Assembly: GCA_902795215.1 (NCBI GenBank)
Contig: CADBKG010000007.1
Coordinates: 1 to 51,204 of the forward strand
DNA from: an uncultured Erysipelotrichaceae bacterium
GTDB taxonomy: Bacteria > Bacillota_I > Bacilli_A > RF39 > UBA660
Direction: 5' to 3'
Length of the DNA: 51,204 nt
Under the pieces are notes generated by a model that saw nothing but the letters and a program-made list of their open reading frames with translations, was not told the origin of the DNA and made no database searches. A program made the position numbers and the translations under genes. Positions 9,021 through 40,467 of this stretch are shown piece by piece (the first letter of the stretch is position 1; every line of letters begins with the position of its first letter).

Positions 9021-9021
9021 G

Positions 9022-9050
9022 TTGACGTATATACTAATTTTTGTTAAAAT
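9022..9050 (+). promoter_or_regulatory. SigA-type promoter for the SipW-cassette secreted protein
   Basis: TTGACG (9022-9027), a 17-base spacer and TAAAAT (9045-9050). The gene starts 26 bases downstream behind AGGAGGA, so strong expression is likely. Confidence 0.82.
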
Positions 9051-9075
9051 ATTATATATGATAGGAGGAATAAAA

Positions 9076-9624: not shown

Positions 9625-9629
9625 TTTAT

Positions 9630-9653
9630 ACTAACCAAAAGGTTAGTCTTTTT
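9630..9653 (+). terminator. Terminator between the secreted protein and sipW
   Basis: ACTAACC (9630-9636) pairs with GGTTAGT (9641-9647) around an AAAA loop, with a CTTTTT tail. No promoter is seen between it and sipW, so the downstream genes probably depend on read-through at a lower level. Confidence 0.85.
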
Positions 9654-9673
9654 GCATCCTAAGGAGAAAGCCT

Positions 9674-10801
9674 ATGAAAAAGAATACTAGAGGGATAAAC
9701 TATTTACTTATAGAATTGTTAATATCAGTCCTTGTTTTTACTTTTATGTTTAAAGGTCAAGTAAGAATGTATACAATAACAGCATTAATGGTTATATATG
9801 CAGTATGCATGATTAAAAGATTTGGCTTAATGAAGGATAATAACTATTTAAAATCATACGTAAATAGGATAGTAATTGCCACTTTGATGGCATTCCTTCT
9901 AGTAATATATTTTGTAGGATTATTTTTAGGATTTAAAGAAAATATTATTGAAATAAAATCATTAAATATTTTAAAAATAGTATTACCATTAATTATATTA
10001 ATAGTATCTCAAGAACTAATTAGATATATAATTGCAAGAAATAATCAAAAAGAGAAAAAACCACTTATTGTATATGCATTTATAATGATAATTGTAGATA
10101 TAATAATGCATTCATTTATGTATAATTTCCATAGTAGAGAAGAAGTATTTATATTTATTAGTTTAATAATTCTTCCAAGTATTGCTAAAGAAATGTTATC
10201 AAGTTTTCTTGTATATAAATGTAGCTATGTACCAAGTCTTATATATAGACTTGCTATAGGTTTATATGCATATGTATTTCCAATAATACCGAATTTGGGA
10301 AATTATCTAACTGCAGTAGTGGATATATTTTTACCATTTACAATATATTACTTTTCAGCTAGGACAATAAGAAAGCATGAAAAGGAAGGATTGTATTACA
10401 AAAAAATTATTAAAAGGATTGTATACGTTCCTCTTCTTGTAATGGTATTAATAATAACAAGTTTAATAACTGGAATATTTAAATATAAACTAATTGCAAT
10501 AGGATCTAATTCTATGAACCCAACATATGTTCGTGGGGATGCAATCATATATGAAAAAGAAAAACCTAAAGATATCGATGTGGGAGATATTTTGGTGTTT
10601 AAAAAAGATGGAAGATTAATAACTCATAGGGTTGTTAAAAAAACCAAAGTAAATGAAAAAGTATATTTTTATACTAAAGGGGACGCTAATAAAAGCGTTG
10701 ACAATTTTAAAATAAATGAGGAAGAAGTTGTTGGAAAAGTTGATCTAGTAGTTAAATATGTAGGTTATCCAACACTTTGGATTAGAGAAGTAACAGAATA
10801 A
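9674..10801 (+). CDS. sipW: SipW-type (ER-type) signal peptidase I
   Basis: Membrane signal peptidase using a Ser-His dyad instead of the usual Ser-Lys. The catalytic serine is S280 in SNSMNPTYVRGD and the histidine is H318 in LITHRVV. The N-terminal 270 residues hold several membrane segments, far more than Bacillus SipW, making the protein 375 residues long. AAGGAGAAAG precedes the ATG. Its neighbours are exactly the expected partners: two proteins with SipW-type signal regions (9076 and 11905) and a DUF5305-like protein. It should cut these at the membrane outer face. Confidence 0.9.
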   Translation: MKKNTRGINYLLIELLISVLVFTFMFKGQVRMYTITALMVIYAVCMIKRFGLMKDNNYLKSYVNRIVIATLMAFLLVIYFVGLFLGFKENIIEIKSLNILKIVLPLIILIVSQELIRYIIARNNQKEKKPLIVYAFIMIIVDIIMHSFMYNFHSREEVFIFISLIILPSIAKEMLSSFLVYKCSYVPSLIYRLAIGLYAYVFPIIPNLGNYLTAVVDIFLPFTIYYFSARTIRKHEKEGLYYKKIIKRIVYVPLLVMVLIITSLITGIFKYKLIAIGSNSMNPTYVRGDAIIYEKEKPKDIDVGDILVFKKDGRLITHRVVKKTKVNEKVYFYTKGDANKSVDNFKINEEEVVGKVDLVVKYVGYPTLWIREVTE

Positions 10802-25694: not shown

Positions 25695-25712
25695 AACGGA
25701 GGTGAGAAGTAA

Positions 25713-27158
25713 ATGAGAAAATACGATAAAAAGAATAAGACTAATTTTGCAATAGTTTCAGCAGTATGTATTCTTATACTTCTTGCCTTTGGTTTCTTTA
25801 TAAAAAGGGTATATGATACAGGCAAAAAAGAATATGTGATTAATTCAAATTCAGTTCTATATGATAAAGAAATGAATAAACTTCTTTTAGATGATACTGG
25901 ATTAATTAAAATTAAATGGAGTGGCGCATATTATTTAAAGTATAAAGATAAAGATATAGCGCTTGATAAACAAGTAGTTGTATTTAATAATGCAACTAAA
26001 AATATTAATTTATATGGAACAATATATAAAATAAATATGGATGAAACTATCGATACACTTAGAGATGAGACAATAATAGAAGAAACAATTATCCCAAAAT
26101 TTTATAAACTTGCAGATAGAAAATATCTTTTAGTTGCTCCTACGATTAGAAATGAAAAAGGAGATTTTAGAGCGGATAATTATCTTATTGTTCATTTAGA
26201 CAAAATGGGTAATGCAGAGCTATATAATAATAAAATCAATATGAAAACTCTTACCCCAACTAAATTAGTAACACCAACTTATACATTTGATATAGCAAAT
26301 GAAAAATTAGATTATAGTGGAACTATTATTGATTTAAGAAAAATAATTGGAAGTACTAATCTATATAAAGAAGCAAAAGAGAGTGTTGAGAGTACAGAAT
26401 CTGGAAGTGGATCTGGATCTGGTTCTGGAGGTTCATCAAGTTCGAGTAATTCACAGAATACTACTAATAATTCATCTAGTTCTAATTCAAGCAGGAATTC
26501 TAGTTCTAATAGAAACTCTAATTCTTCAAGTAGTTCTGCAAGTACTGATAATAATTCTTCCGTAGTTGATAATAAAGTTTATCAAGATAAAAACTTTAGT
26601 GTTGTAAAAAATACTATAGGTACTGACACATTAAGTGTTGATTATTCAATATATGATCCTAAAAATGAATATAAATCTGTATATATGGAAATTACGGACG
26701 TAAATAGTGGTAATAAAGAAAGTTATTACTTGGCTAAAAATTCTAATAATATATTGGTTAGAGGATTAAAACCATTAACAAAATATAACGTCGTATATAA
26801 TTATTCTTACTTAGATGATAATAGAGGACTAGTATATGACACATTTAATACTTCATATACGATTACTACATTACTTCCAAATACGACTATTATTGTATCA
26901 AAGCTTACAAATAAGGAAGTAATATATTCTATTAAAGAAGATCAAGCATTAATGCAGGGTGCTAAAGTAGAATTGTATTTGGATGATGAATATAAAGAAT
27001 CATATACATTTACATCTAATTCGCTTGAATCAGCATTTACGGGAAGATTTAATCTATCTAATTATGACAATTTTAGTTATTTAACATTAAAATGTACCGA
27101 AATTAGATATGCAAGTGGTACTGTAAATATTGATTTATCTATTAAAGAAAAGAATTGA
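25713..27158 (+). CDS. Membrane-anchored surface protein with Ser-rich linker (short relative of the giant protein)
   Basis: 481 residues with the same plan as the 1819-residue neighbour. One membrane segment (about 12-31) is followed by a beta-rich domain (about 40-215). A Gly/Ser/Asn-only linker (about 222-284) leads to a C-terminal pair of Fn3-like modules. GGAGGTGAG precedes the ATG, 18 bases after the previous stop, so it is co-transcribed. The linker resembles that of the larger protein in composition and position, suggesting duplication. I do not recognise a named family; a structural surface role near the secretion machine is inference. Confidence 0.75.
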   Translation: MRKYDKKNKTNFAIVSAVCILILLAFGFFIKRVYDTGKKEYVINSNSVLYDKEMNKLLLDDTGLIKIKWSGAYYLKYKDKDIALDKQVVVFNNATKNINLYGTIYKINMDETIDTLRDETIIEETIIPKFYKLADRKYLLVAPTIRNEKGDFRADNYLIVHLDKMGNAELYNNKINMKTLTPTKLVTPTYTFDIANEKLDYSGTIIDLRKIIGSTNLYKEAKESVESTESGSGSGSGSGGSSSSSNSQNTTNNSSSSNSSRNSSSNRNSNSSSSSASTDNNSSVVDNKVYQDKNFSVVKNTIGTDTLSVDYSIYDPKNEYKSVYMEITDVNSGNKESYYLAKNSNNILVRGLKPLTKYNVVYNYSYLDDNRGLVYDTFNTSYTITTLLPNTTIIVSKLTNKEVIYSIKEDQALMQGAKVELYLDDEYKESYTFTSNSLESAFTGRFNLSNYDNFSYLTLKCTEIRYASGTVNIDLSIKEKN

Positions 27159-27890: not shown

Positions 27891-27919
27891 TTGACAAGCA
27901 CTATAATTTAAGATAAAAT
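27891..27919 (+). promoter_or_regulatory. Consensus promoter of pilin-like gene 1
   Basis: TTGACA (27891-27896), 17 bases, TAAAAT (27914-27919). Confidence 0.88.
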
Positions 27920-27955: not shown

Positions 27956-28339
27956 ATGATTAATTTATTAACAATTAATTTTTGTTCAAACGCAAAAGAC
28001 ATTTTATCACTAGTAGGTATTATTTTAACTGTATTCAAAATAGGAATACCAATTATCATTATTGCAATTGGTATGGTTGACTTAGGTAAAGCAGCTTTAT
28101 CTTCTAAACCAGAAGAAATCAAAAAACAAGCGACAAGTCTGCTTTGGAGATTCGTTGGAGGAGTATTTATATTCTTCTTACCATCACTAGTTATGCTTTT
28201 ATTTAAGCTTATTGGTCCTTGGGGTGGAGTAAAGGCAAATACAGATTATGATATATGTTATTCTTGCGTAGTCCATCCATGGAGGGGTTGCGATGCATCA
28301 CAAGGAACGGAAGATAAAGGAAATTATCCAAACGATTAA
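27956..28339 (+). CDS. VirB2/T4SS pilin-like double-TM protein 1
   Basis: 127 residues without a cleavable signal. Two hydrophobic segments (about 16-42 and 58-83) flank a basic loop, SSKPEEIKKQ. The second ends in the IFFLPSL pattern. A cysteine sits just before the first segment (NFCSNA) and a CxxC pair after the second (YDICYSC). This hairpin plan with both ends outside fits VirB2-like pilins and the T4SS-pilin family of other phyla. Three relatives follow. Its own consensus promoter and terminator suggest high-level monocistronic expression, as expected for a major subunit. The family assignment rests on topology and context. Confidence 0.7.
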   Translation: MINLLTINFCSNAKDILSLVGIILTVFKIGIPIIIIAIGMVDLGKAALSSKPEEIKKQATSLLWRFVGGVFIFFLPSLVMLLFKLIGPWGGVKANTDYDICYSCVVHPWRGCDASQGTEDKGNYPND

Positions 28340-28354
28340 TAAATCGTTTTTTTT
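28331..28354 (+). terminator. Terminator after pilin-like gene 1
   Basis: AACGATT (28331-28337) pairs with AATCGTT (28342-28348) around an AATA loop, then a T run; it overlaps the stop codon. Confidence 0.9.
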
Positions 28355-28363
28355 CTGCATAGA

Positions 28364-28392
28364 TTGACAAATTAATACAAAAGTCGTATAAT
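28364..28392 (+). promoter_or_regulatory. Perfect consensus promoter of pilin-like gene 2
   Basis: TTGACA (28364-28369), 17 bases, TATAAT (28387-28392): both boxes and the spacing are consensus, the best promoter in the window. Confidence 0.93.
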
Positions 28393-28420
28393 CTAGCTAT
28401 ATTGGAAGGGGGAAAACTAT

Positions 28421-28804
28421 ATGAATGAAGCTAGTTTGAGTAGTTTTTGTCATGGAATATCTCCATTGTTACAATTAGTGGGAGAACTGCTTTTAGTTTT
28501 TAAATTAGTTGTTCCTATACTTTTAATTGTAATATGTATACTAGATGTAGCTAAAGCAATACTTTCTAGTAAATCAGATGAAAATAAAAATAGGTTAAAA
28601 AACTTCTTTTATAGAGTTTTATTTGCTGTACTATTGTTTTTTATCCCTGCATTATTTATGTTATTTTTCAGTTTTAATCCAGAATTTACAGCGGCTAGGG
28701 ATAATAGTGGCCTTGATTATGATGTGTGTTATGACTGTTTATTTTATCCATATAAGGACGAATGTAAGACAGCAGTTGAGATTGCACATTACGAATATGA
28801 ATAA
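28421..28804 (+). CDS. VirB2/T4SS pilin-like double-TM protein 2
   Basis: 127 residues, the same length and plan as pilin-like protein 1. SFCHGI stands before the first membrane segment, the charged loop SSKSDENKNR comes between, LLFFIPAL lies in the second segment, and DYDVCYDC follows it. GGAAGGGGG gives a strong ribosome binding site. It is monocistronic with a consensus promoter and a terminator. The two proteins align along their whole length apart from the last ~20 residues, pointing to tandem duplication and divergence. A role as an alternative or co-assembled pilus or channel subunit is inference. Confidence 0.7.
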   Translation: MNEASLSSFCHGISPLLQLVGELLLVFKLVVPILLIVICILDVAKAILSSKSDENKNRLKNFFYRVLFAVLLFFIPALFMLFFSFNPEFTAARDNSGLDYDVCYDCLFYPYKDECKTAVEIAHYEYE

Positions 28805-28831
28805 AATAAGCTTAAAAAGCTTATTTTTTTT
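28804..28831 (+). terminator. Terminator after pilin-like gene 2
   Basis: A 10-bp perfect stem, AAATAAGCTT (28804-28813) with AAGCTTATTT (28817-28826), and a T run. Confidence 0.9.
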
Positions 28832-28842
28832 GACTTTAATTA

Positions 28843-28871
28843 TTGTTTTTACTCTATTTAAATGTTATAAT
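28843..28871 (+). promoter_or_regulatory. Promoter of the main T4SS-like operon
   Basis: TTGTTT (28843-28848), 17 bases, TATAAT (28866-28871) with an extended TGT. Confidence 0.75.
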
Positions 28872-28890
28872 TACCATAGTGGTGATTCAT

Positions 28891-30111
28891 ATGAAAAAGT
28901 ACTTTAAATATATAATGATTTTAATAATAGGATTATTTGTTTTTAATGGAATAAATGTAAAAGCGGATGATAGTGATTTGTGTGGGAATGCTAAATTTAA
29001 ACTTACTGGCAATCATAAAGCTACTATATGTTCTTTAAGAGGTTATGTAGCTCCACAAGATTTTCAGACAAAGTCAGTAGATTCCCCAAGCTTGTATACT
29101 ATCAACATCTATTATACGCCTACTACAGGTATATGGGAATTGGAAGTTAAAGGTGATAAAAAATTTTCAGAAATTAAGGAAATGTCTATGAAGACAATAA
29201 CAAAGACTTACTCAAATGGAGATTACTCGTTTAATGCTTCAAATTTTGAATGTCCAAAATCTTTTAATCAAATACTGTATAAAACTCATAAAAATTTACT
29301 TTATAAGAGTTATACCATTTCCAAAATTGGTTTTAGCAAAACTGCAACAAAAGTTAATAGCAATCTACAAGTAAAAGGTTTTAAACAAACCGAAAATGGT
29401 TCTACTCTTTTAGTTGATTACCCAAATGATGTCAAAAAATATGCCAAAGAAAAAATAAATGCAATTAATAAATATGAGTGTAGCGACAAAAAACTTAATA
29501 AACTAAAAACTAGTATTAATAGTGAATGTTATTTTGCCGAATTATGTTGGGATGCTAGAACAGAAAAAAAAGACGAGTGTCATTCAGGAGCTAGTCCACT
29601 AACAGATTTGATGACTGCTCAACAAAAGAAAATAAATAACGCAATTAAAGAAAAAATAGATTCTTGTGATTGTAGCGATTATGAGAAGGCTAAAGATAAG
29701 AAAAATTGTGAAAATAACGTGTTAGATATAGAGAGAAAAGTTGAAATAGATAATGCCACGACTGAAAATATTGAAGAAAAAGTAGAAGAAGCAGTAGAAA
29801 ACTTTAATTTTCAACGAGTTGTAATAGACGAAGAAGAATCAACATGTGAAGGAATTCTTTCAAAAGATGGAACAGAGTTTTTACAAAAAGTATTAAAGTT
29901 TGTTCAATATGGTGGAGTTATAGTAGCGTTGTTATCTTCTACACTTGATTTTATAAAATCTGTTTCAAGCGGATCTCAAGACGATTTGAAAAAAGCATCT
30001 AGTAGATTCCTAAAAAGAATGATATTTGCAGCATTATTATTCTTTGTTGTTATATTAACAAATATATTACTTGGTATTTTCAATATAACCGTTCCAAGCG
30101 ATTGTGTGTAA
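28891..30111 (+). CDS. Secreted/membrane protein with Cys-rich ectodomain and C-terminal pilin-like hairpin
   Basis: 406 residues. A signal peptide (about 1-24, ending NVKA before DD) leads to an ectodomain of roughly 300 residues with many cysteines. These include CNxKL-type pairs, DCSDYEK and KNCENN. The last ~78 residues repeat the pilin-like plan: STCEG before the first hydrophobic segment, the loop SGSQDDLKKAS, an LLFFVVIL second segment, and a final DC. The start at 28891 is chosen for GGTGATT and the promoter; the upstream in-frame TTG lies inside the promoter. It looks like a pilin-like subunit carrying an extra outer domain, perhaps a tip or base component. Confidence 0.7.
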   Translation: MKKYFKYIMILIIGLFVFNGINVKADDSDLCGNAKFKLTGNHKATICSLRGYVAPQDFQTKSVDSPSLYTINIYYTPTTGIWELEVKGDKKFSEIKEMSMKTITKTYSNGDYSFNASNFECPKSFNQILYKTHKNLLYKSYTISKIGFSKTATKVNSNLQVKGFKQTENGSTLLVDYPNDVKKYAKEKINAINKYECSDKKLNKLKTSINSECYFAELCWDARTEKKDECHSGASPLTDLMTAQQKKINNAIKEKIDSCDCSDYEKAKDKKNCENNVLDIERKVEIDNATTENIEEKVEEAVENFNFQRVVIDEEESTCEGILSKDGTEFLQKVLKFVQYGGVIVALLSSTLDFIKSVSSGSQDDLKKASSRFLKRMIFAALLFFVVILTNILLGIFNITVPSDCV

Positions 30112-30126
30112 GGAGGATAAAGCATA

Positions 30127-30642
30127 ATGAAAAAAATATTCATTTTACTATTAATGTTGACACTTGTGTTTTATTCTTATGACACTGTTAATGTACAAGC
30201 ATTTAATGAAACTAGGCATGTATTAGCTGTAGATGATTATTCTTCAGAAACAAATGAATGTGGTATAGATAGAGATAATTTTTGTGCAAATTTCTCTAAT
30301 GCAATAGTAATAGTAGGCTACCTTATAATTATTTTAAAAATAGCATTACCACTCGTTATAATAGTTAAAACTACTATTAATTTATTGCCACTTATTACAT
30401 CAGGTAATCCAGATAATTTTAAGAAAGCAATGACATCTATATTAATATCTTTTGTTGGCGCTGTTTTAATATTCTTTTTACCAACTATAATTAATATTTT
30501 CTTAGGATTTACTAATAAATATAATGAAAGTTGGGAAACGGAAGCAACATGTCATGAATGTATATTAAATGCAACGGGAGAAAACTGTCAAAAATATGTA
30601 GATTTAGTTAATAAATGTAAAAATATAAAAAAGGAGGGATAG
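30127..30642 (+). CDS. VirB2/T4SS pilin-like protein 4 with signal peptide
   Basis: 171 residues. A clear signal peptide (about 1-25, NVQA before FN) is followed by DNFCANF, a first membrane segment, the loop TSGNPDNFKKA, a second segment with LIFFLPTI, and ATCHEC with further cysteines. It thus shares the FC...CxxC pattern of the other pilin-like proteins; the signal peptide fixes the N-terminus outside. AAGGAGGA lies just upstream, 15 bases after the previous stop, and the VirB6-like gene follows immediately. The signal-peptide form is the closest of the four to classic VirB2 precursors. Confidence 0.72.
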   Translation: MKKIFILLLMLTLVFYSYDTVNVQAFNETRHVLAVDDYSSETNECGIDRDNFCANFSNAIVIVGYLIIILKIALPLVIIVKTTINLLPLITSGNPDNFKKAMTSILISFVGAVLIFFLPTIINIFLGFTNKYNESWETEATCHECILNATGENCQKYVDLVNKCKNIKKEG

Positions 30643-30643
30643 T

Positions 30644-32596
30644 GTGGTAAAACTATTAACAGGAGTATTCTTTGTTATAGATGAAATGGTTTACAGCATA
30701 GTTAAATCACTTTATACCATTTTTATGTTTATGGGTGAAGTTAGACTATCTGCTGATGAAACTACAGGTGCAATTCTATCAAGAATCTATGTTTTAATAT
30801 TTTTTATAATGGTATTTGTGCTAGCCTATGCACTACTTAATTACATTATCAATCCTGATAAGGTTAATGATAATAATATAGGTGCAACCTCACTATTAAA
30901 AAAGATATTGATATCACTAGGTGTAGTAATTATTTCTCCTATGTTGTTTAGCGAGTTATACTATTTACAACATCTTGTAATAAAATCGCATGTAATAGAA
31001 AATGTAATACTTGGAGGTCATACTTTTAAGTATGAGGATGGTACTGAGGTTGAAGATGATTCTGTAAATGTTAATTATGTTATAGCTGCAGTTTATTCAT
31101 CATTCTTGTATCCAGAGGATGGATCAGCTTGGGATTGCTTGCAGGATGGTATAAAAGGTACTGAATTAGAAGATGATGGTGATTTTGCGGGATATTGTAA
31201 TGCTTATTATCAAGCCGTTTCTACTGGATCGATTTCAGGATTTTCTAGATATTATGCCAAAGATGGTTTTAAATATTTATGGTTTATATCACCAATAGCT
31301 GGTATAGCATTAATATTCTTTATATTATCGTTTTGTATTAATCTTGGCATGAGGGTATTTAAACTTTTAGTATTAGAAATATTAGCCCCAATACCGGCAT
31401 TGTTAGATTTAATACCTGGAAAAAGTGGAACGTTAAAAAAATATTTTGAAACAACTCTAGGAGTATTCGCTGAGTTATTTATATATCAAGCCGTAGTACT
31501 TGGCGGTATGTGGTTAATAACAATGGTGCCAGTGGTTATTCCTGATTTATTCACAAATCTTCCAGGAAATATTGGAATATTTGCATATATGATTTTAATA
31601 TTTGCGATGTTAAAAGTTGCAAAAGACTTACCAAAATTAATATCAGATGTTTTAGGAATAAAAGGCGATGGTGTGATAAAGGCAACAGGCTTAAGAGCAC
31701 TTGGTATGGCAGGAACTGCAGCTGGTATTGGATTTGGTTTAAAACACGCATTTACTGATAAAGGTAATGGAAACTTTGGAAACAGATTACTTGCAGCAGG
31801 TCAAGCTGTTGGACACGGTTTATATGCTAATAGAAATTCAGAATCAATAAGAGATAGTTTTAAAAACTTTAAATCATATAATGAAAAAGTTCAACAAGAT
31901 GCAGCATATAGACAAACAAGAATGTATGATAGAAAAATGGATAGAGATGCATACAAAGACTTTAAGAAAAATAATCCTGGCTTGAATTTTATTGAAGCTC
32001 GTCGTGAATTTAAGAATTTAAATCCAACACTTAGTAATGCTGAATATAAAGATTACACTAGAAAAATCGAACTCAATAAACGTATTACTGATGCAGGAAA
32101 AGCTTTAGAAGATGCGACTTATGGTAAAAATGAAGCTTATAAGCAAATGAAATCAGCAGTTGATTTACAAAAAAACTTATTAGGCAAAGAAAAATTAAAT
32201 GATGGCGACATGGTTACATTAGCTAATGGTCAAACCATGGAATATTCTAAAGTTAAGAACGCTATGGATAAAATTAAAGAAGACGAAATTAATAAAAATC
32301 CTACTGCAGTACATGAATATTTTTCTACAATCAAAAGTATTCAAGCTGCTAATGGAGAGGATGTAGAGCTTCCAGCAGGAGTATCAATAGATGCTAGAAC
32401 TTATAGAGATTCTAGTGGTAATTTTAAAGCTGCAGAATTTATAACCAGTCAAGAGGCAATTAACAATGCTGCAAAAGATAAACAGAAAGCTCTTAAAACA
32501 GATGCATATTTAAATAAGCAAATGGAAGAAATGCAAAAAGAAAAGAATAAAAGTGCAGCAGCTGAAGCTGCCAAGGCAAATAAAGATAATAAATAG
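30644..32596 (+). CDS. VirB6/TrbL-like polytopic channel protein
   Basis: 650 residues starting with GTG behind AAGGAGGG. The first ~360 residues contain about seven membrane segments, including a long amphipathic stretch (SFCINLGMRVFKLLVLEILAP type) typical of VirB6/TrbL. The remaining ~290 residues are a cytoplasmic, Lys/Glu/Ala-rich, coiled-coil-prone tail. VirB6 proteins form the inner-membrane channel of type IV secretion systems; long C-terminal extensions are common in Gram-positive versions. Its place between the pilin-like genes and the VirB3- and VirB4-like genes supports the assignment, although primary-sequence similarity is hard to judge by eye. Confidence 0.75.
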   Translation: MVKLLTGVFFVIDEMVYSIVKSLYTIFMFMGEVRLSADETTGAILSRIYVLIFFIMVFVLAYALLNYIINPDKVNDNNIGATSLLKKILISLGVVIISPMLFSELYYLQHLVIKSHVIENVILGGHTFKYEDGTEVEDDSVNVNYVIAAVYSSFLYPEDGSAWDCLQDGIKGTELEDDGDFAGYCNAYYQAVSTGSISGFSRYYAKDGFKYLWFISPIAGIALIFFILSFCINLGMRVFKLLVLEILAPIPALLDLIPGKSGTLKKYFETTLGVFAELFIYQAVVLGGMWLITMVPVVIPDLFTNLPGNIGIFAYMILIFAMLKVAKDLPKLISDVLGIKGDGVIKATGLRALGMAGTAAGIGFGLKHAFTDKGNGNFGNRLLAAGQAVGHGLYANRNSESIRDSFKNFKSYNEKVQQDAAYRQTRMYDRKMDRDAYKDFKKNNPGLNFIEARREFKNLNPTLSNAEYKDYTRKIELNKRITDAGKALEDATYGKNEAYKQMKSAVDLQKNLLGKEKLNDGDMVTLANGQTMEYSKVKNAMDKIKEDEINKNPTAVHEYFSTIKSIQAANGEDVELPAGVSIDARTYRDSSGNFKAAEFITSQEAINNAAKDKQKALKTDAYLNKQMEEMQKEKNKSAAAEAAKANKDNK

Positions 32597-32609: not shown

Positions 32610-32930
32610 ATGAGAGATAGTTATCTAATACCAGCAAATTCAAAAAAAAGTGAATTGATACTGGGTTTGTTTACAACGGTGGATTTGATACTATTTGGTA
32701 CAGGATTGGTAATAACTACCGTACTTATAATAGTATTTCAGGGTGATTTGCAGAGTTTATGGACAGCATTGCTTGTTATGGCTCCTGCACTGATTACAGG
32801 ATTTCTTGTATTCCCTGTACCTAATTATCATAATGTTTTACAGTTGATAATTAATATGTATACATTTTACTTTGTAAGACAAAGAATATATAAATGGAGA
32901 GGTTGGTGTTTTAAAGATGACAGGAAATAA
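32610..32930 (+). CDS. PrgI/VirB3-like protein
   Basis: 106 residues with the compact PrgI-family layout: a short polar start ending in a basic segment (IPANSKKSE), two membrane segments (about 17-41 and 48-68), and an arm ending FYFVRQRIYKWRGW. PrgI/VirB3 proteins tie the VirB4 ATPase to the membrane and almost always precede the VirB4 gene, as here. AAAGGGGT precedes the ATG. Its end overlaps the next gene by 14 bases. Confidence 0.85.
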   Translation: MRDSYLIPANSKKSELILGLFTTVDLILFGTGLVITTVLIIVFQGDLQSLWTALLVMAPALITGFLVFPVPNYHNVLQLIINMYTFYFVRQRIYKWRGWCFKDDRK

Positions 32931-33459
32931 GCCTGCAGAAGAGTGGGTACCAGTAAGAAATATTACAAATGGTATTATTACACTTGATAACGGATATATG
33001 GTAGCTGGAGTAAAAGTAGAACCAAAAAACATATTTATTCTTGATCAACAACAAAGATACAATATTATTAATGCACTAAGAACATTTTATAATAATATTG
33101 ATTATGAATTTTGGTTAATTTGTGCGGGTAGACCAGTTGATATTAATGTTTATTTGGCTACTTTGCAAGTACAATATAATAATTCTAATAATGCTGAGAT
33201 TAGAAAATTATTAATACAAGACATTAATAAAGCTAATATGTTTATGAGTACACAAACTAATGCAGTTGATACTGAATACTATATATTATTTAAAGAAAAG
33301 AGACCAGAAATTATTCAAAAGAGATTACAAAATCTTATTTCTGGACTTGCAAATTGCACTTTGAATGGAAAACAAGCATCAAATGATGATTTAAGAATGC
33401 TTATCGATAATTTCTTTAATGGTGCGCAAAAAACTGAGTTTGGGACGGTGGCATCATGA
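32917..33459 (+). CDS. VirB4/TraC N-terminal part as a separate protein
   Basis: 180 residues without membrane segments or a P-loop. The opening PVRNITNGIITLDNGYMVAGVKVEPKN-like region and the next helical part match the N-terminal domain that precedes the ATPase in VirB4/TraC/PrgJ-type proteins. It overlaps the PrgI-like gene by 14 bases and the ATPase gene by 4 (ATGA). The overlap suggests translational coupling and a two-chain VirB4 rather than a broken gene. Confidence 0.78.
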   Translation: MTGNKPAEEWVPVRNITNGIITLDNGYMVAGVKVEPKNIFILDQQQRYNIINALRTFYNNIDYEFWLICAGRPVDINVYLATLQVQYNNSNNAEIRKLLIQDINKANMFMSTQTNAVDTEYYILFKEKRPEIIQKRLQNLISGLANCTLNGKQASNDDLRMLIDNFFNGAQKTEFGTVAS

Positions 33460-35246
33460 ATCTAAAAAGTGAATTAGCGCCTAAAGGAATAGAATTTAAA
33501 CCTACTGAATTTTCTTTAGGAGAGAAAAAATGTACAATTTTAACGGTTATTAGTTATGCTAAATGGATTCCAATTGGAGAAATGGCGGATATAACTAATA
33601 TTCCTGGAGTAAAAGTTGCAATTAAGCATATTCCAATCGATTTTGCATTAATGCGTAAAATGATTGATAAAGAAATTGCAGATTTAAGGGATAGATTCCA
33701 AAAGGAATATGATAATACTTTAAAAGAAAAGATAAGACAAGATTATGAATCTCTCGAGGGATTTGTTCAACAACTTGCAGCATCTAATTCTAGAATATTT
33801 GATTTCCAAATGCACATTATGCTTTCAGCAGATTCTGATACAGAACTTGAACAAAAGAAAACCGAAGTCAAAACATATCTTACTGGAAAAGAAATGCGTG
33901 CAATTCCATTAATGTTTGAACAAGAAAAGGTTCTAAAATCAATGCTTCCAATATTCCCTAAACAAGATATTGAGGATAGAGTAGGAACACCAATTCCTTC
34001 TGATACTATTGCAGCAATGTATCCATTTATTTTCGATAGTATTAAAGATCCTGGACTTTCTGCATTGCTTGGAGTTGATTTCTCTGGAGGAGTAATACTA
34101 TTTAATCAATTCTTATATCAAATAAAGAAAGAAAATAATAGAAATAATGCCAACATTTTAATTCTTGGACAATCTGGTTCAGGAAAGAGTACTGCAGCTA
34201 AGTTACTTCTTAGAAGTCATTTTAGAAGTGGATATAAAATTATTGCAATAGACCCTGAAGGCGAACTTGAAGAAATGACAAATAGATTTAAGGGAGACTT
34301 TATTAATCTTGGTAAAGGTGGACAATTTGGGATGATTAATCCGCTTGAAATTGTTGTAGATGGTGATGAAGATGAAACAACGCCAGGGCAAGGCGCAAGT
34401 TATACTATATTAACTAGAACAATTTCCACTTTGAAAGCATTTATGGTTTATTATAGCCCTGATATTGAAGATGATGTTTTAACTTTATTTAGTGATGTTG
34501 TACAAGATACATATAAGAGATTTAATATAGATTATGACACTGATTTTAGTAAAATGACTAGTAAAGACTATCCAACTTTTGATGACGTTTATGCCACAAT
34601 TCGTGGTAGACTTCTATCAATGAATGAAAAAACTCATGAAAGAGATATAATGGAACGTCTAGAGCTTAAGATTAGACCATTTACTAAAGAATTAAGATAT
34701 TACTTTAATGGACATACAACTATTACTCCTGAAAGTAATTTTGTGGTATTTAATATAAGAGAATTAATGAATAGTGAATCTTCTATTAGAAATGCATTAT
34801 TCTTTAATATATTAAAATATGCTTGGAGTATGTGCTTAGATAGAAATACTATTACAGTTTTATCTGTAGATGAAGCGCATGTACTTCTTGGAGATAGAAA
34901 TGAGCTTGGTGCAGAATTCCTTGCCCAAATTCAAAGAAGAAGTCGTAAATATAATACAGGTACTATCATTATTACTCAGCAACCAACTGATTTTGCTGCA
35001 CCAAATATAATAATGCATGGTAAAGCAATATTTGACAATGCTAGTTATTATTTAATTATGGGGCTTAAAAAACAAGCAGTTGAAGATTTAGGACAATTGA
35101 TTGATTTAAATGAAAGTGAAATGAATACAATTAAATCCTATACACAGGGTGATGGATTATTTGTATGTGGAAATAGGCGAATGCAAATTAGTGTTATTGT
35201 AACGCCAGATGAACTCGATTCGTTTGGAATGGGTGGAGGTCTATAA
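33456..35246 (+). CDS. VirB4/TraC-type secretion ATPase
   Basis: 596 residues: the rest of a VirB4, comprising a middle region and a C-terminal RecA-like ATPase. Walker A is GQSGSGKST (238-246); Walker B is VLSVDEAHVLL with D472/E473; then RRSRKYNTG and the ITQQPTDF sensor. VirB4 ATPases power pilus biogenesis and substrate passage. The start ATG overlaps the stop of the N-terminal partner. In the ATPase frame a TGA lies a few codons before this ATG, so there is no longer in-frame version. No slippery site was found that would fuse the two. Confidence 0.92.
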   Translation: MNLKSELAPKGIEFKPTEFSLGEKKCTILTVISYAKWIPIGEMADITNIPGVKVAIKHIPIDFALMRKMIDKEIADLRDRFQKEYDNTLKEKIRQDYESLEGFVQQLAASNSRIFDFQMHIMLSADSDTELEQKKTEVKTYLTGKEMRAIPLMFEQEKVLKSMLPIFPKQDIEDRVGTPIPSDTIAAMYPFIFDSIKDPGLSALLGVDFSGGVILFNQFLYQIKKENNRNNANILILGQSGSGKSTAAKLLLRSHFRSGYKIIAIDPEGELEEMTNRFKGDFINLGKGGQFGMINPLEIVVDGDEDETTPGQGASYTILTRTISTLKAFMVYYSPDIEDDVLTLFSDVVQDTYKRFNIDYDTDFSKMTSKDYPTFDDVYATIRGRLLSMNEKTHERDIMERLELKIRPFTKELRYYFNGHTTITPESNFVVFNIRELMNSESSIRNALFFNILKYAWSMCLDRNTITVLSVDEAHVLLGDRNELGAEFLAQIQRRSRKYNTGTIIITQQPTDFAAPNIIMHGKAIFDNASYYLIMGLKKQAVEDLGQLIDLNESEMNTIKSYTQGDGLFVCGNRRMQISVIVTPDELDSFGMGGGL

Positions 35247-35275: not shown

Positions 35276-37231
35276 GTGGATGATGATAACAAAGAATTAA
35301 ATAATATTGATGAAACCGAAGTTAATAGCATTGATGAAAAAGCTTTTTCAAAAGCTATTACCCCAATAAAAAAAGCTATCAATATTAAGGGAAATATTAA
35401 AGTTTTATGGAATAAAAATCCCATCTTACTTTTAACAATTGCTGGTGGAGCAGCAATGTTTATATTTATAATATTTGGTATTGTTTTAATTAACAACTAT
35501 ACACCATTTAACCATTTAGAGTTTAGCGAAGAAGTAGAAAATGTTACTGAAGATGATCAATACAAAGATGAATTTGAAAGCTTTTGGTATGATTTGTGTA
35601 CAGATGAAACAGATCCAAGTTGTACAAGTTCACAAAAAAGTGATAATAAACAACTAATAAAAGATCAAAAATCTTTTTATAAAAAGTTAAATAAAAAAAA
35701 TTTGACAGAACAACAAAAAAGAATAGTACTTGCTACTATTTTTTATGGGTATAGTATGGATCAATTTATGCCAGGTGGAGCATATAGTGAAACTGATGCT
35801 ACAGAGCTTCCTGATGAGGCTGAAGAAGTTGATGTTGATGTTGAAGAAAACTTTGACTTTGATGAACAAAAAGGGCATATTAAAGAACTTTCAAAGGCAG
35901 TAAAGAAAGATTCTACTGGAGATTATTTTTTTGAAACATACTTGTTATCTAGTGATTATCTTGATTCTAAACCAGATGCATATAAATATAGAAAACAATA
36001 TGCTGAGGCGCATGGATTAAATATATCTGATTGGGAAAACTGGGATGAAGAAGAAATAGCTGGATATAGAAAACAAATGGCTGATGATATTAAAGCAATT
36101 GTTGATGCTTACACTGAGAATAATCCTAATGGAAGTGCACTTAGTGCATGTGGAAGCGGAGAATATTGGTGGCCAATAGGTTCAAGTGAAACAACAACTG
36201 AAAATGGTGTTACTTTTGCAAGTGGTACACCTTCTACTACTGTAGTAACTAGTTCTTATGGATGGAGAGTACATCCAATAAGCCATGTTTGGAAAAACCA
36301 TAGAGGTGAAGATATCGATGGTCAAGAAAATGTTACCAACGTTATTGCTTCTATGGGTGGAACCGTTTCTGAAGTTGTAACGGGATGTACAAATGGTAAT
36401 TATAGTTGCGGTGGTGGCTGGGGTAATCAAGTTGTTATCACCGATACTAAGGGAAACCAACAAAGATATGGTCATTTAGTTGGTAGTTCTATAACTGTTA
36501 AACAAGGTGATACTGTTGCTCAAGGTCAGGTTATTGCAAAAGTTGGTACTACTGGTAGTTCAACAGGACCACATTTGCATTTTGAAATGATTGTTAATGG
36601 TGAACAAGTGCCACCAGGAAAAAAATATAAACCAACACAAGGGTCTACTCAGGAAGTAGATAATCCAAATTTCTATATTGATCCAGATAATCCAAGGCCT
36701 TCAGGAAATGGAACTGCAGGTTGTACAAATGGGGCAGTCGATGGAGAAAGTAATATACAAACAGTATGTTTATCATTTAAAAATGAAGGCTATAGTGATG
36801 TGGCTACAGCAGCAGTACTTGTTAATATGCATTATGAATCGAATTTTGATAACCAATGTGTTAATAGTATTGGTGCATCAGGACTTGCTCAGTGGTTAGA
36901 TCGTTTCCCAAATCTATATAAGGCATATCAAGAAAATTGGATTGATCCAAAGAATCAAGTTGAATTTATGTTTAATGAACTGAACACATCAGAATCTGCA
37001 TCTAAGAGAGTATTAGAAAATGGAACAGAAGTAACATCGCTAGCAAGAAATTTCTGTAATAGTTTTGAAAGACCTGGAGCATCAGAATGTGCAAAAAGAT
37101 CAGAATCAACAACAGCTAATAAATATTTGAATTATGTAAAAAATGGCTGTCAAGGTACTGTTGAAAGAATAGCACCAAATCCTGTTGATTGTGTTAGAAG
37201 AGTTGGAACCTTCCAGGAGGTATTAAAATGA
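35276..37231 (+). CDS. Bifunctional wall hydrolase: M23 peptidase plus phage-tail-lysozyme-like domain
   Basis: 651 residues. The start is GTG behind TAGGTGGTGA. After a cytoplasmic region of about 58 residues comes one membrane segment (about 58-80) and a helical stalk. An M23/LytM peptidase follows with H342-x3-D346 (HRGED) and the H433-x-H435 pair (PHLHFE), all zinc ligands present. The C-terminal part (about 495-640) resembles phage-tail lysozyme domains, with E521 (MHYESNF) as likely catalytic acid and GASGLAQWLDR after it. Two-domain hydrolases of this kind are the VirB1-equivalents of Gram-positive T4SS and open the peptidoglycan for the channel. Confidence 0.9.
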   Translation: MDDDNKELNNIDETEVNSIDEKAFSKAITPIKKAINIKGNIKVLWNKNPILLLTIAGGAAMFIFIIFGIVLINNYTPFNHLEFSEEVENVTEDDQYKDEFESFWYDLCTDETDPSCTSSQKSDNKQLIKDQKSFYKKLNKKNLTEQQKRIVLATIFYGYSMDQFMPGGAYSETDATELPDEAEEVDVDVEENFDFDEQKGHIKELSKAVKKDSTGDYFFETYLLSSDYLDSKPDAYKYRKQYAEAHGLNISDWENWDEEEIAGYRKQMADDIKAIVDAYTENNPNGSALSACGSGEYWWPIGSSETTTENGVTFASGTPSTTVVTSSYGWRVHPISHVWKNHRGEDIDGQENVTNVIASMGGTVSEVVTGCTNGNYSCGGGWGNQVVITDTKGNQQRYGHLVGSSITVKQGDTVAQGQVIAKVGTTGSSTGPHLHFEMIVNGEQVPPGKKYKPTQGSTQEVDNPNFYIDPDNPRPSGNGTAGCTNGAVDGESNIQTVCLSFKNEGYSDVATAAVLVNMHYESNFDNQCVNSIGASGLAQWLDRFPNLYKAYQENWIDPKNQVEFMFNELNTSESASKRVLENGTEVTSLARNFCNSFERPGASECAKRSESTTANKYLNYVKNGCQGTVERIAPNPVDCVRRVGTFQEVLK

Positions 37232-38082
37232 AACGTGAAAAAACAGAAGGTAATAACAATAAAGTATATATTATAATTATTATATTACTAGTTTTGTTTG
37301 GCCTTATGCTTTCGTCAGTACTGATGAAAGAAAAAAATGATAGTGAGAATAAAATAGATATCGAAAAAAGTTCAACTAGAAACGTAGCAGATTATATATC
37401 ATTCTTTTCTATTCAAAACATAATAAATAAATTCATTTTTTCAAATAATGCTGAAGAAGTATATTCTATGTTAGATGGAGAATATATAAATGAAGAAGGA
37501 ATAACACAAGATAATGTAATCGAGCTAGCCAAAAAGGGACTCATTGGTATGAATTACAAGTGTCAAAAAGTTCAAGAAAACAAAGCAAATAATAGATTTA
37601 AAGACGTATATATTACTAATGGTATAATAATTGAAAATGGTTTAGAAGATATCACTGTCGTTGATAATGATTTTAAAGCAATTGTATTATTGGATTATGA
37701 TAATTTAACTTTTAGCATAATTCCAAATACTGATAATCTAAAAGAAGCTTTAAAAAATAAAAAGAAAGTTTTGATAGAAAAAAACAAATATAATGTTCTT
37801 CCATCTACTGGAGTTAAAGATTATTATGATATATGTTTAACTTATTATAATGATTTTGTGTTTAAAATTAATTATTTACCTGATGAAGCATATAATTTGC
37901 TTGATTCTGATAGTAAAGAAAAAGTATCTAAAACCGATTTATATAATCTGTACGGTTTTACTTCTTTAAATTCTTGTAAATATGATTCTGAAGGCGCAAC
38001 TTATATTGCAACGGCAACAAATGAAAAGATAATTCAATTTAAAGAAAAGAGTATAATGGACTATAGTGTTTATTTAGAATAG
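37228..38082 (+). CDS. VirB8/TcpC-like bitopic protein
   Basis: 284 residues. A short basic cytoplasmic end and one membrane segment (about 13-32) are followed by an outer region that appears to contain two related domains. INKFIFSNNAEEVYSMLD (first) and YNDFVFKINYLPDEAYNLLD (second) occupy similar places. Paired NTF2-like domains behind one TM are the hallmark of TcpC/VirB8 scaffold proteins. It overlaps the hydrolase stop by 4 bases (ATGA) with AGGAGGT upstream. The assignment is by architecture and context, not by strong sequence match. Confidence 0.65.
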   Translation: MKREKTEGNNNKVYIIIIILLVLFGLMLSSVLMKEKNDSENKIDIEKSSTRNVADYISFFSIQNIINKFIFSNNAEEVYSMLDGEYINEEGITQDNVIELAKKGLIGMNYKCQKVQENKANNRFKDVYITNGIIIENGLEDITVVDNDFKAIVLLDYDNLTFSIIPNTDNLKEALKNKKKVLIEKNKYNVLPSTGVKDYYDICLTYYNDFVFKINYLPDEAYNLLDSDSKEKVSKTDLYNLYGFTSLNSCKYDSEGATYIATATNEKIIQFKEKSIMDYSVYLE

Positions 38083-38133: not shown

Positions 38134-40467
38134 ATGAAATTAAAAATTAGAGTAAAAAAAGAAGATTTTATGCTTTTCTTATTAGTATGTGTAATTTTAT
38201 TTATAGGATGTTTAATTTTAGCTGCTAATTTTGTTTCGTTTGGAGCAAATGAACAGTTTGTAGGATTAAATATTTTTAAGAATTTTAGTATGAGCACATT
38301 AGGAGTAGCTATTGTCTTATTTATTATTTCACTTGTAATAATATTTATGAATGTATCAAGTACCATATTTGATCTAGAAAAAGGTGGACTTGGTATAATC
38401 TTTGGTGAAAAAGAGGAAAAAGGTTATAACTCATGGATGACTGATAAAGAGATGAAAAATGCCCGTAATATTGTTAAAGTTCCATTAACCGCTGAACATG
38501 CTGAAGGTGGAGGCTTACCACTTATTAATGATGGTAAAAACATGTGGGTAGATAATGGTGAAAATCATACTCTTATTATTGGACAATCTGGTTCAGGTAA
38601 AACAACTGCTCTTGTTGATCCACAAGTTAGAAGTTTAATGAAACATGATGAAAGTATGGTTATTGCCGACCTTAAAGGTGAAATATATAGAGACCATGGA
38701 GCTGAGTTAAAAGAACGTGGTTATAATGTAATTATAGTTAATTTCCGTTATCCAAGAGAAGGTAATGCATGGAATCCTCTTACAATTCCATATAGAATGT
38801 ATAAACAAGGAAAAAGGGATAAAGCAAAAGAATTACTTGAGGATATTAGTTCTAATATCGTAAAAGGTGATGGAAAGAATGATGATCCATTCTGGACTGA
38901 TTCTGGATCAGATTACTTTTCTGCTTTAGCACTAGCTTTATTTAAAGATGGTTCTGAAAATGAAGTTAATATAACTTCTATTAGTAATATGGCTTCTGCA
39001 GGAGAAACTAAAAATAAAACTAGTAGAAGAACATATGCTCAAGAATACTTTTCATTAAAAGGTGAAGAATCAGATGTATATCAATATGCTAAAGGTACTG
39101 TAAATGCTCCTGAAGATACTAAAAAGAGTATTTTATCGGTGTTCCTTAGTAAAATTAGAATATTCTCAACTCGTGAAGAGTTATCAGAAATGCTATCATA
39201 TACAGATTTCAATATGGAGAATATTGGAAAAGAAAAAACTGCTGTATTTATGATAGTTCATGATGAGAAAACAACTTACCATTCTCTTGCAACTATTTTT
39301 ATTAAACAATTATACGAAGTATTAATAGATGTAGCACATCAAAATAAAGATGGTAGATTAAAATTTAGAACTAATTTTATATTAGACGAGTTTGCTAACA
39401 TGCCAGAATTAAGAGATGTTGATTCAATGGTTACAGCAGCGCGTTCAAGAAATATTAGATTTACATTTATTATCCAGAACTTCTCACAACTAGATGATGT
39501 ATATGGTGAGAAAAAAGCAGAAACAATACGTAGTAACTGTGCTAATATGATTTATCTATTAACTAATGAACTTCGTTCTCTTGAAGAAATTAGTAAATTA
39601 TGTGGTGAAGTTAAATCAAAAGAAAAAGAAAAAACGGTTTCAACACCACTTGTTACAGTTACAGACCTTCAAAAGATGAAACCAAATGAAATTATAGCAA
39701 TTCGTATGCGTCAAAAACCATTTAGAACAACATTAAAACAAGGATTTAATACTAATTGGGGTAAAGAATATCCTAAGGTTTTCCCTGAAGAAAGAGAAAT
39801 GTTCCCTGTTAAATCATTTAATATGAAAGAATATGTAGATAGAGAACAAAGGAAAGCGACTGTAGAAAAAATTAATGGAGCAAGACTTGGTGAATCAAAC
39901 GAAATGGATAGAATACCAAGAGCTAATAGAGATTATAATTTTGACCCTCTTGCAGGTTTTAATCCAATGAATCCAATGTCAAACCCTAGTAGCAGACCAA
40001 CTGGGGTTGGTCCTATGGGAGGAACAAATGATTTATTTGGTGGTATGAATAGTAGTCGTCCTGGTCCAAATGCAGGATTTAGTCCAGGTATTGATATTGA
40101 TGCATTGATTAAAGAAATTGATGAACAAATAGCAAAAGAAGAAGCAAAAGAAAAAGCAAAAAGAGAAGAATACGAAAAAGAAAAAGCAGCAGCGCTTGAA
40201 AAAGAAACTAAAGCTGAGACTAAAGAAGTTGTTCCAGTAGAAAAAGAAGTTCCAAAGGCAACAGAAACCACAAAAGAATTAATAACAACTCCTCAAAATG
40301 ATACATATAAAGTTACATCTGAAAAAGATACTTTTGAAAATAAACCATCAGGTAAGACAGAACCTATACCAAAAGTACCAGTTGATAACTCAAGTGTAGT
40401 TATAGATAATAACGTAGTAACGGATGATCAATTCTTTGATGACTTCTTTGGTGATGATGATTTTTAA
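38134..40467 (+). CDS. VirD4/TraG-type coupling ATPase
   Basis: 777 residues. Two membrane segments lie at the N-terminus (about 12-35 and 50-72). Walker A is GQSGSGKTT (150-158), followed by MVIADLKGEIYRDHG. Walker B is FILDEFANMPE with D418/E419, then ARSRNIRFTFIIQN. This is the VirD4/TraG/TcpA type that selects substrates and hands them to the T4SS. After about residue 600 the protein becomes a Pro/Gly/Asn-rich and then Glu/Lys/Thr-rich tail ending in an acidic DDQFFDDFFGDDDF. AGGGTGAC precedes the ATG. No relaxase gene is adjacent, so the substrate may be protein. Confidence 0.93.
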   Translation: MKLKIRVKKEDFMLFLLVCVILFIGCLILAANFVSFGANEQFVGLNIFKNFSMSTLGVAIVLFIISLVIIFMNVSSTIFDLEKGGLGIIFGEKEEKGYNSWMTDKEMKNARNIVKVPLTAEHAEGGGLPLINDGKNMWVDNGENHTLIIGQSGSGKTTALVDPQVRSLMKHDESMVIADLKGEIYRDHGAELKERGYNVIIVNFRYPREGNAWNPLTIPYRMYKQGKRDKAKELLEDISSNIVKGDGKNDDPFWTDSGSDYFSALALALFKDGSENEVNITSISNMASAGETKNKTSRRTYAQEYFSLKGEESDVYQYAKGTVNAPEDTKKSILSVFLSKIRIFSTREELSEMLSYTDFNMENIGKEKTAVFMIVHDEKTTYHSLATIFIKQLYEVLIDVAHQNKDGRLKFRTNFILDEFANMPELRDVDSMVTAARSRNIRFTFIIQNFSQLDDVYGEKKAETIRSNCANMIYLLTNELRSLEEISKLCGEVKSKEKEKTVSTPLVTVTDLQKMKPNEIIAIRMRQKPFRTTLKQGFNTNWGKEYPKVFPEEREMFPVKSFNMKEYVDREQRKATVEKINGARLGESNEMDRIPRANRDYNFDPLAGFNPMNPMSNPSSRPTGVGPMGGTNDLFGGMNSSRPGPNAGFSPGIDIDALIKEIDEQIAKEEAKEKAKREEYEKEKAAALEKETKAETKEVVPVEKEVPKATETTKELITTPQNDTYKVTSEKDTFENKPSGKTEPIPKVPVDNSSVVIDNNVVTDDQFFDDFFGDDDF

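Follow-up and report, generated by a model that had tools for sequence, protein, structure and literature searches.

Tandem membrane hairpins with a near-invariant outer cysteine pair as candidate VirB2-like subunits of a type IV secretion system in uncultured Bacilli

Four tandem pilin-like membrane hairpins (P1 to P4) lie beside the genes of a chromosomal machine, with DNA or protein as putative cargo, in a member of a poorly known gut bacterial group. They are best read, with a probability of about 0.6, as PF18895-type, VirB2-like subunits of the pilus or channel of a monoderm type IV secretion system (T4SS), stapled by cysteines and divided into short major and long minor forms, a reading that draws on computed homology, hairpin fold, cysteine pairing statistics, gene order and promoters. 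Such a layout, with hairpins closed by a probable disulfide, is not described for Gram-positive machines of this kind. According to a 2025 review, VirB2 is not found in Gram-positive T4SSs, with the exception of Patescibacteria (PMC12857230), in agreement with the first-pass annotation, which had called this pilin family unusual for a Gram-positive T4SS. The window, that is, the whole stretch of 51,204 nucleotides analysed (contig CADBKG010000007.1), carries the array as follows:

27891..27919, + strand: P1 promoter, near-consensus TTGACA-17-TAAAAT (11/12)
27956..28339, + strand: P1, short pilin-like hairpin of 127 aa; C10, helix 14-49, loop, helix 52-86, C101/C104/C112
28322..28352, + strand: terminator-like hairpin with T-run after P1, stem from 28330; RNA fold -5.8 kcal/mol, z -4.9
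28364..28392, + strand: P2 promoter, consensus TTGACA-17-TATAAT (12/12)
28421..28804, + strand: P2, short pilin-like hairpin of 127 aa; Cys 10 versus 103, 106 and 115, with C39 inside helix 1
28798..28832, + strand: terminator-like hairpin with T-run after P2; RNA fold -9.6 kcal/mol, z -3.5
28891..30111, + strand: P3; signal peptide, Cys-rich ectodomain, C-terminal hairpin (residues 325-396 of 406), end DCV
30127..30642, + strand: P4, 171 aa; signal peptide and hairpin; Cys 45 and 53 versus 142, 145, 154 and 164; adjoins the VirB6 gene

The P3 frame was taken from the ATG at 28891, the list of open reading frames having given the TTG at 28843 as its start. A shared cysteine layout had been claimed for the proteins at 27956, 28421, 28891 and 30127, and its motifs are indeed there: P1 (NFC ahead of helix 1, the loop SSKPEEIKK, IFFLP and CYSC), P2 (SFC, SSKSDENKN, LFFIP, CYDC) and P4 (NFC, SGNPDNFKK, IFFLP, CHEC) all have Phe-Cys before the first membrane segment and CxxC past the second. 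The C-terminus of P3 shows the expected TCEG, loop (SGSQDDLKK) and final DC(V), the IFF(L/I)P motif being lost there (LFFVV); that motif, ascribed to the other three, is exact in P1 and P4 but not in P2. The likeness amounts to homology above chance, as a P1 query retrieved P2 at E 2e-22 and P4 at 6e-15 from the same genome, whereas P3, which has diverged too far to be picked up with P1 as sole query (E 0.1), was recovered by the family HMM at 2.5e-19. Four homologous two-helix hairpins thus stand in the window, as proposed, but the genome, searched by family and by stretches, has five paralogues, the fifth being a hairpin with an NlpC/P60 domain outside the window (G000:C3:72390, 324 aa).

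In its AF2 model, P1 is a helical hairpin (helices 14-49 and 52-86, pLDDT 81), and the C-terminus of P3 is modelled as the same type (residues 325-396, pLDDT above 90 over most of them), so that the unrelated folds that would have spoken against a common family are not what the models predict; the P3 ectodomain is modelled as beta strands with pLDDT mostly between 50 and 80. Counted together, lysines and arginines come to 4.4 in the 20 residues of the loop and to 0.9 in the 15 residues flanking the hairpin on each side. This positive-inside pattern, together with the model, predicts that the basic loop faces the cytoplasm and that the two ends lie outside. This is the topology in which each subunit would insert. 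By far the commonest Pfam match of the family is PF18895, T4SS_pilin (49/83, 22/70 and 4/21 members); with 17.3 and 20.1 bits P1 and P4 fall below its cut-off of 26.6, which is passed by several members from the same family of genomes (for instance, 33.2 bits in G246 and 32.5 in G025), and the match to the pilin-like NF045849 (Mbov_0395 / MMCAP2_0565) is weak, at 13.6 bits. The predicted folds and sequence matches favour the pilin family that had been suggested. Nothing was matched with confidence when P1 and P3 were used in fold searches, and neither sequence nor fold led to any solved VirB2 pilus, a bare two-helix hairpin being a weak probe. The pilin profile found just receptor helices in the PDB (E at least 0.045), and Foldseek with VIA-align returned generic hairpins only, with Z up to 6.3. 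Weak Pfam matches to Frizzled, 7tm and others were set aside as membrane-helix noise.

Downstream of the array, the genes of the secretion machine follow:

30644..32596, + strand: VirB6-like polytopic protein; weak NCBIfam matches to the MMCAP2_0566 and pLS20_p028 conjugation families; order conserved
32610..32930, + strand: PrgI/VirB3-like protein; PF12666 at E 0.002 (below cut-off), positions 2-96 of the VirB4_plasma model
32917..33459, + strand: N-terminal part of VirB4 as its own gene; NF045975 positions 107-282, E 2e-15
33456..35246, + strand: ATPase part of VirB4; NF045975 positions 294-890, E 1.6e-103
35276..37231, + strand: VirB1-like wall hydrolase with a transmembrane segment, M23 peptidase and phage-type lysozyme; PF01551 at 5e-21, PF18013 at 2e-21
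37228..38082, + strand: single-TM protein without family match, conserved in the locus; order kept in close relatives
38134..40467, + strand: VirD4-type coupling ATPase; NF045973 at E 6.8e-91, above cut-off

By gene content (VirB4, VirD4, PrgI, VirB6 and a wall hydrolase), the locus qualifies as a predicted monoderm, MPF-FATA-like T4SS, in which PrgI and VirB6 are identified by weak matches and gene order. The split of VirB4 is conserved in all loci, and its ATPase part is 71-82% identical across 80 loci from metagenome-assembled genomes. The locus lacks the relaxase and the boundaries of a conjugative element: PF03432, the single relaxase family searched, occurs in few genomes of the family and, in the window's own genome, only as a 185-aa frame on another contig. 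The same scpAB...nusA-infB site holds the T4SS locus in another species, where VirB4 identity (77%) compares with 82% for NusA, 75% for InfB and 62% for ScpA. Judged from these sequences, the locus is a vertically inherited chromosomal fixture, and P1 to P4 would serve a machine of VirB4, PrgI, VirB6 and VirD4 fixed in the chromosome of this uncultured Bacilli family.

About 285 relatives of the window hairpins were gathered. With P1 as the query, members were found in 36/36 genomes of the same family and in 0/23 genomes of other families, and the arrays reach up to six members. A hairpin gene directly precedes VirB6 in 30/31 genomes, an order also seen in the 80 loci. P1/P2, short and with their own promoters, and P3/P4, long and with signal peptides, look like two tiers; a similar 11/12 site precedes most P1 orthologues, and promoters of at least 11/12 stand before 43/81 short, 3/48 mid-length and 3/102 long hairpin genes, compared with 0.5% in shuffles. 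A GC-demanding terminator scan found none in the array, and the AT-rich hairpins listed above were then folded directly. The short P1 and P2 would be the major subunits of a pilus or conduit, expressed from their near-consensus promoters, whereas the long P3 and P4 and the enzyme-fused members would be minor subunits showing ectodomains or wall-opening enzymes at its base or tip. This subunit reading comes from the genes of uncultured organisms, in which no pilus has been observed.

Alternatively, the hairpin could be a generic membrane anchor on which adhesins and wall enzymes are displayed around the secretion machine; it would not polymerise, and its cysteine pair would steady the outer ends. 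Many members are fused to hydrolases and other enzymes (NlpC/P60, Peptidase_C39_2, GDSL lipase, lysozyme, M23, YkuD, CHAP, Amidase_3 and M15), as such an anchor would have it, and several members are encoded well away from the T4SS genes, among them the NlpC fusion of the window's own genome. However, promoters are strongest and the layout is best conserved in the short members, which have next to nothing outside to show; gene order ties the array to VirB6 (30/31) and to TadZ (23/29), and PF18895 recurs as the family match. All of this makes a mere anchor unlikely. Large ectodomains or hydrolases, borne by many members, are in any case unlike typical pilins.

The tie to TadZ belongs to a wider linkage. 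In most genera, the hairpin array sits between Tad-pilus and T4SS genes, and in many of them the order runs CpaB-TadA-TadB-TadC-minor pilins-TadZ-hairpin(s)-VirB6-PrgI-VirB4-VirD4, with a hairpin, of which P1 is the orthologue, immediately 3′ of TadZ in 23/29 genomes. The Tad motor and the T4SS might form one composite appendage, namely a disulfide-stapled VirB2-type filament that TadA/B/C would build or retract, that would be coupled to VirB4/VirD4 export, and whose hydrolase-fusion tips would open the wall of a partner cell; this is an unlikely arrangement, which, if true, would be an export and attachment organelle of host- or partner-dependent Bacilli, parallel to that of Patescibacteria. 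The same collinearity would suit an array that belongs to a Tad-type pilus or a Tad/T4SS hybrid, with P1-type hairpins perhaps handled by the TadA/B/C motor. Nevertheless, the window's genus keeps its Tad genes apart and without a hairpin (in the window's own genome TadA/B/C/Z and pilins are on contig C1), the hairpins are PF18895-like and have no prepilin-like N-terminus, and their adjacency to VirB6 is the stronger one, which makes such an assignment improbable.

The cysteines, in turn, are kept far outside the genus, as a family of disulfide-stabilised pilins had led one to expect. Helix 1 is preceded and helix 2 is followed by a cysteine in 131/132 proteins (37 genomes) and in 148/152 proteins (the 80 independent loci); since background windows give chance levels of 18% and 24% for the two sides and the pair is found in 0/28 PF18895-type hairpins of other Bacilli families, the layout is not a chance one. 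When 83 short relatives are aligned, with a mean column identity of 22%, no column but C10, P32 and F73 is invariant, and C101 is kept in at least 90%. All 42 two-Cys members have one cysteine per side, 57/60 four-Cys members are split 1+3, and the number of external cysteines is even in 75/83 short, 49/52 mid-length and 79/104 other members. The one-per-side split and the mostly even counts are, at the level of sequence, strong evidence for an intramolecular bond, and this near-invariant pair probably forms a disulfide that closes each hairpin by stapling its outer ends; further pairs in the outer tails would provide additional bridges. That the cysteines instead join one subunit to the next in a covalent pilus seems quite improbable: a cysteine at each end would permit head-to-tail linkage, and inter-subunit VirB7-VirB7 and VirB7-VirB9 disulfides are known from Gram-negative T4SSs (references listed in PMC3556328), but the two-Cys members always flank their own hairpin with one cysteine at either end (42/42), and evenness holds per protein, including long and enzyme-fused members unlikely to be present in equal stoichiometry. 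A metal site (C10, C101, C104, C112) or a redox CxxC couple, suggested by CxxC past helix 2 in 54/132 members and by four external cysteines being the commonest number in short ones (47/83), is very improbable, given that CxxC is not the conserved core and that 21/83 short and 21/52 mid-length members have two external cysteines, too few for a Cys4 site.

The nearest parallel to these arrays is found in Patescibacteria, where VirB2-like pilin arrays of the T4SS are described (PMC12102498) and are essential in Ca. S. epibionticum (PMC12857230). As far as the available text of the former goes, both groups have tandem divergent PF18895/VirB2-like pilins near virB4, a monoderm T4SS (VirB4, PrgI, VirB6, VirD4-type), mostly no relaxase, and hosts with small genomes; Patescibacteria are another phylum, and that text mentions neither disulfides nor pilin cysteines and describes neither Tad linkage nor hydrolase fusions. 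Closer in taxonomy are PF18895 proteins from the same class, Bacilli, including the pilin-like Mbov_0395 / MMCAP2_0565 of mycoplasma ICEs (NF045849). These are also two-helix hairpins, and the mycoplasma VirB4 matches the same model (NF045975), but the cysteine pair is present in 0/28 of the outgroup PF18895 hairpins, and that model includes the PrgI part, whereas the window locus splits PrgI, VirB4-N and VirB4-C into three genes. The VirB2 expansions of Bartonella and Anaplasma likewise consist of tandem paralogues with variable ends, and Anaplasma alignments show an N-terminal cysteine (PMC3556328); these are Gram-negative intracellular bacteria, and a two-sided pair is not stated for them. 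Before assembly, VirB2 and TraA pilins are two-helix hairpins with a cytoplasmic loop and both ends outside. The window family resembles these Gram-negative pilins in standing beside a VirB6-type platform, and differs from them in its multiple paralogues, outer cysteine pair, ectodomain and enzyme fusions and monoderm host. Set against the absence stated in the review, a whole Bacilli family (36/36 genomes) would thus have VirB2-type hairpin arrays with an outer cysteine pair and wide peptidoglycan-enzyme fusions. Should the hairpins prove to form pili, then disulfide-stapled pili are within the reach of Gram-positive T4SSs, and the same organelle has undergone expansion in two unrelated lineages with small genomes.

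A further question concerns the enzymes that would serve these disulfides. The search for extracellular thiol oxidoreductases, proposed in the first-pass annotation, found no VKOR in 60 genomes, and DsbA-type PF13462 passed its cut-off in a single family genome and is absent from the window's own, so no standard oxidase is known for the hairpins; it did bring up, through PF00085, a secreted CPHC-thioredoxin/DsbD-like protein that is present in most genomes and was missed by the VKOR, PF13462 and DsbD (PF02683) searches. This fusion and a partner thioredoxin probably service the disulfides. A DsbD-type partner usually conveys reducing power outward. Within the Firmicutes, the family would offer a clear example of conserved disulfides, predicted outside the cell, in the absence of DsbA; that fusion is the candidate enzyme. 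Its gene is linked to hairpin genes in 4 of ~33 genomes, for a rough chance estimate of 1-2 cases, a linkage that is suggestive only.

The pilin-like two-helix hairpins encoded in the window share a pair of cysteines, one before helix 1 and one after helix 2, and a disulfide-stapled pilin is the best supported reading of them, a putative one with a probability of roughly 0.6; the readings weighed here are not all mutually exclusive.

The T4SS locus is bordered by scpAB on one side and rimP-nusA-infB on the other, in an assembly of 1.34 Mb in 37 contigs, of which the window is contig C7. Features of the window are:

7239-8996, gene judged by eye to encode a HerA-like hexameric ATPase, close to the window start and away from the T4SS
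8899-10801, signal-peptidase-like and TasA-like genes
11905-14250, secreted repeat protein adjoining these two, C-terminal part Hint-like (hedgehog/intein-type) by eye
20235-27158, directly 5′ of the pilin array, a 1819-aa and a 481-aa surface protein, both large and with linkers rich in Ser/Asn; in one further species (L039) homologues likewise stand 5′ of the array
27956, P1, short hairpin
28421, P2, short hairpin
28891, P3, long hairpin
30127, P4, long hairpin
32610-35246, three genes family-wide for PrgI, the N-part of VirB4 (180 aa) and its ATPase part (596 aa); in a single mycoplasma ICE VirB4 model they match positions 2-96, 107-282 and 294-890, respectively

The genes 3′ of the hairpins (VirB6-like, PrgI-like, VirB4 as two genes, an M23+lysozyme hydrolase and VirD4) keep their order across the family. 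In G008, another species of the genus, the T4SS occupies the same chromosomal place (L041), with identities to the window of 77% for VirB4, 82% for NusA, 75% for InfB and 62% for ScpA. Since the site is shared and VirB4 has diverged about as much as its chromosomal neighbours, the T4SS is a chromosomal machine passed on vertically, rather than a recent mobile element. Only a handful of family genomes have a PF03432-type relaxase above the cut-off, and the window's own genome has one only as a 185-aa frame on a different contig from the T4SS. The relatives picked up by VirB4 are MAGs named uncultured Bacilli, Tenericutes or Erysipelotrichaceae, with many isolate names hinting at a gut or rumen source.

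P1 to P4 are mutually homologous. With P1 as query, the own genome yielded, besides P2 (2e-22) and P4 (6e-15), a fifth paralogue, which lies on contig C3 (7e-12; 324 aa, hairpin plus NlpC/P60, in housekeeping surroundings); P3, marginal with this query, reached 2.5e-19 with the iterated family HMM. Among the sampled genomes, P1 found matches in 36/36 others of the same family versus 0/23 of other families. HMM searches of neighbourhoods of up to 20 kb gave 134 hairpin proteins from 37 genomes, and 80 independent named loci gave 157 more, 14 of them identical to earlier ones. PF18895 (T4SS_pilin) is their recurring Pfam match. In a hairpin-core tree of low resolution (71 columns), each of P1 to P4 clusters with its own genus orthologues, and P1 also with post-TadZ hairpins of other genera. 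The forms are short (96), mid (61), N-extended (107) and C-extended (21), the last bearing NlpC/P60, Peptidase_C39_2, GDSL lipase, phage lysozyme, M23, YkuD or CHAP domains, and a few N-extended ones Amidase_3, M15_4 or NlpC/P60. Beside such fusions, a hairpin serving as an anchor only may be considered, and is rather unlikely. Outside the T4SS operon there are very large hairpin fusions (464 to 812 aa) whose extracellular parts are C-terminal (L049 2539-4977, L057 8796-10190, L090 5888-7528).

P1 and P2 each have a separate near-perfect sigma-70 promoter (11/12 and 12/12) and their own terminator-like hairpin. Family-wide, promoters of at least 11/12 within 110 nt precede 43/81 short, 3/48 mid and 3/102 long genes, versus rates of 4.7% at other ORF starts and 0.5% in shuffles by the same criterion. 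By this enrichment, short hairpins look like major subunits, separately and strongly transcribed; the long ones are likely minor subunits.

In most genera, CpaB-TadA-TadB-TadC-minor pilins-TadZ precede the hairpin array (TadA named from its PF00437 match, the other Tad genes from order and appearance). Of the 29 genomes in which TadZ was seen, 23 have a hairpin gene immediately 3′ of it; immediately 5′ of VirB6 one lies in 30/31. A Tad or hybrid role for the hairpins is improbable. The genus of the window has its Tad genes on another contig, where a Cys-rich surface protein of 996 aa and a sortase-like gene are their neighbours; this complete Tad-like cluster (L161 1097-12345, contig C1 of the own genome) is apart from the T4SS, with which it is collinear in most other genera.

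Only the 71-residue hairpin core enters the final HMM, so the flanking cysteines were not selected for by the search. The cysteine layout that the first-pass annotation had seen in the window proved far more general and is kept in orthologues: of 132 complete cases, 131 carry a cysteine no more than 25 residues ahead of helix 1, and 131 carry one no more than 45 residues past helix 2 (background 18% and 24%), and in the independent loci both sides carry one in 148/152. The remaining four appear to belong to a single subgroup, ending TSGIG or similar where others read TCGIG. Across 83 aligned short members no column but C10, P32 and F73 is invariant, with C101 reaching 90%; in the alignment of 70 long ones C319 never varies, while C47, Y52 and C405 reach 90%. 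After removal of entries more than 75% identical, external cysteines are even in number in 75/83 short, 49/52 mid and 79/104 long members; where there are two, one stands on each side (42/42), and where there are four, one precedes and three follow (57/60), p-values being inflated by kinship. This per-protein evenness and fixed one-plus-one layout match the prediction of an intramolecular disulfide, which neither a metal site nor free thiols would make. Intermolecular bonds appear unlikely, and metal or redox sites very unlikely.

The P1 model (83 sequences, mean pLDDT 81) shows long helices at 14-49 and 52-86 and a short tail helix at 97-106 containing C101 and C104. In P3, the same hairpin is modelled with high confidence at 325-396; ahead of it come a signal helix and an N-terminal region rich in beta structure, the latter at low to moderate confidence. 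Sequence and fold searches against solved structures gave no confident match, a two-helix hairpin being a poor probe. Since the loop is richer in K/R than its flanks (4.4 per 20 residues versus 0.9 per 15), it is predicted inside and both cysteines outside.

According to a 2025 review (PMC12857230), VirB2 and VirB5 have not been found in T4SSs of Gram-positive bacteria, Patescibacteria excepted, which agrees with the earlier remark that such pilins are unusual there. For Patescibacteria, PMC12102498 describes 441 arrays of 2-11 VirB2-like genes with a mean identity of 25% and few relaxases. The present system works like these arrays; its hairpins are most likely VirB2-like, and the window proteins themselves putative PF18895 members. 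Relative to that description, the host family, two-sided cysteine pair, enzyme fusions, Tad linkage and candidate thiol enzyme are new. Within Bacilli, the nearest named relatives are mycoplasma ICE pilin-like proteins (NF045849). Unlike the hairpins here, 28 PF18895 hairpins of other Bacilli families that served as a control, mostly from mycoplasma-like genomes with TGA read through, have the cysteine pair in 0/28.

A proposed extracellular thiol oxidoreductase was found neither as VKOR nor, in the own genome, as DsbA-type PF13462, but a secreted candidate is present: an operon missed by the Pfam DsbD and DsbA models (L160 844-3445, contig C5) encodes a NifS-like protein, a small thioredoxin (86 aa) and a larger product (387 aa) that combines a signal peptide with a CPHC-thioredoxin domain and a DsbD-like membrane part (domains by eye; PF00085 match). 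Whole homologues, or homologues of just the secreted thioredoxin part, turn up in 33/37 family genomes versus 4/23 others. The association of this candidate enzyme with hairpin genes is suggestive: in two genomes (G016, G028) a hairpin gene lies directly 5′ of the NifS-(Trx)-Trx/DsbD operon, and in two more (G022, G034) the enzyme is near Tad/hairpin genes.
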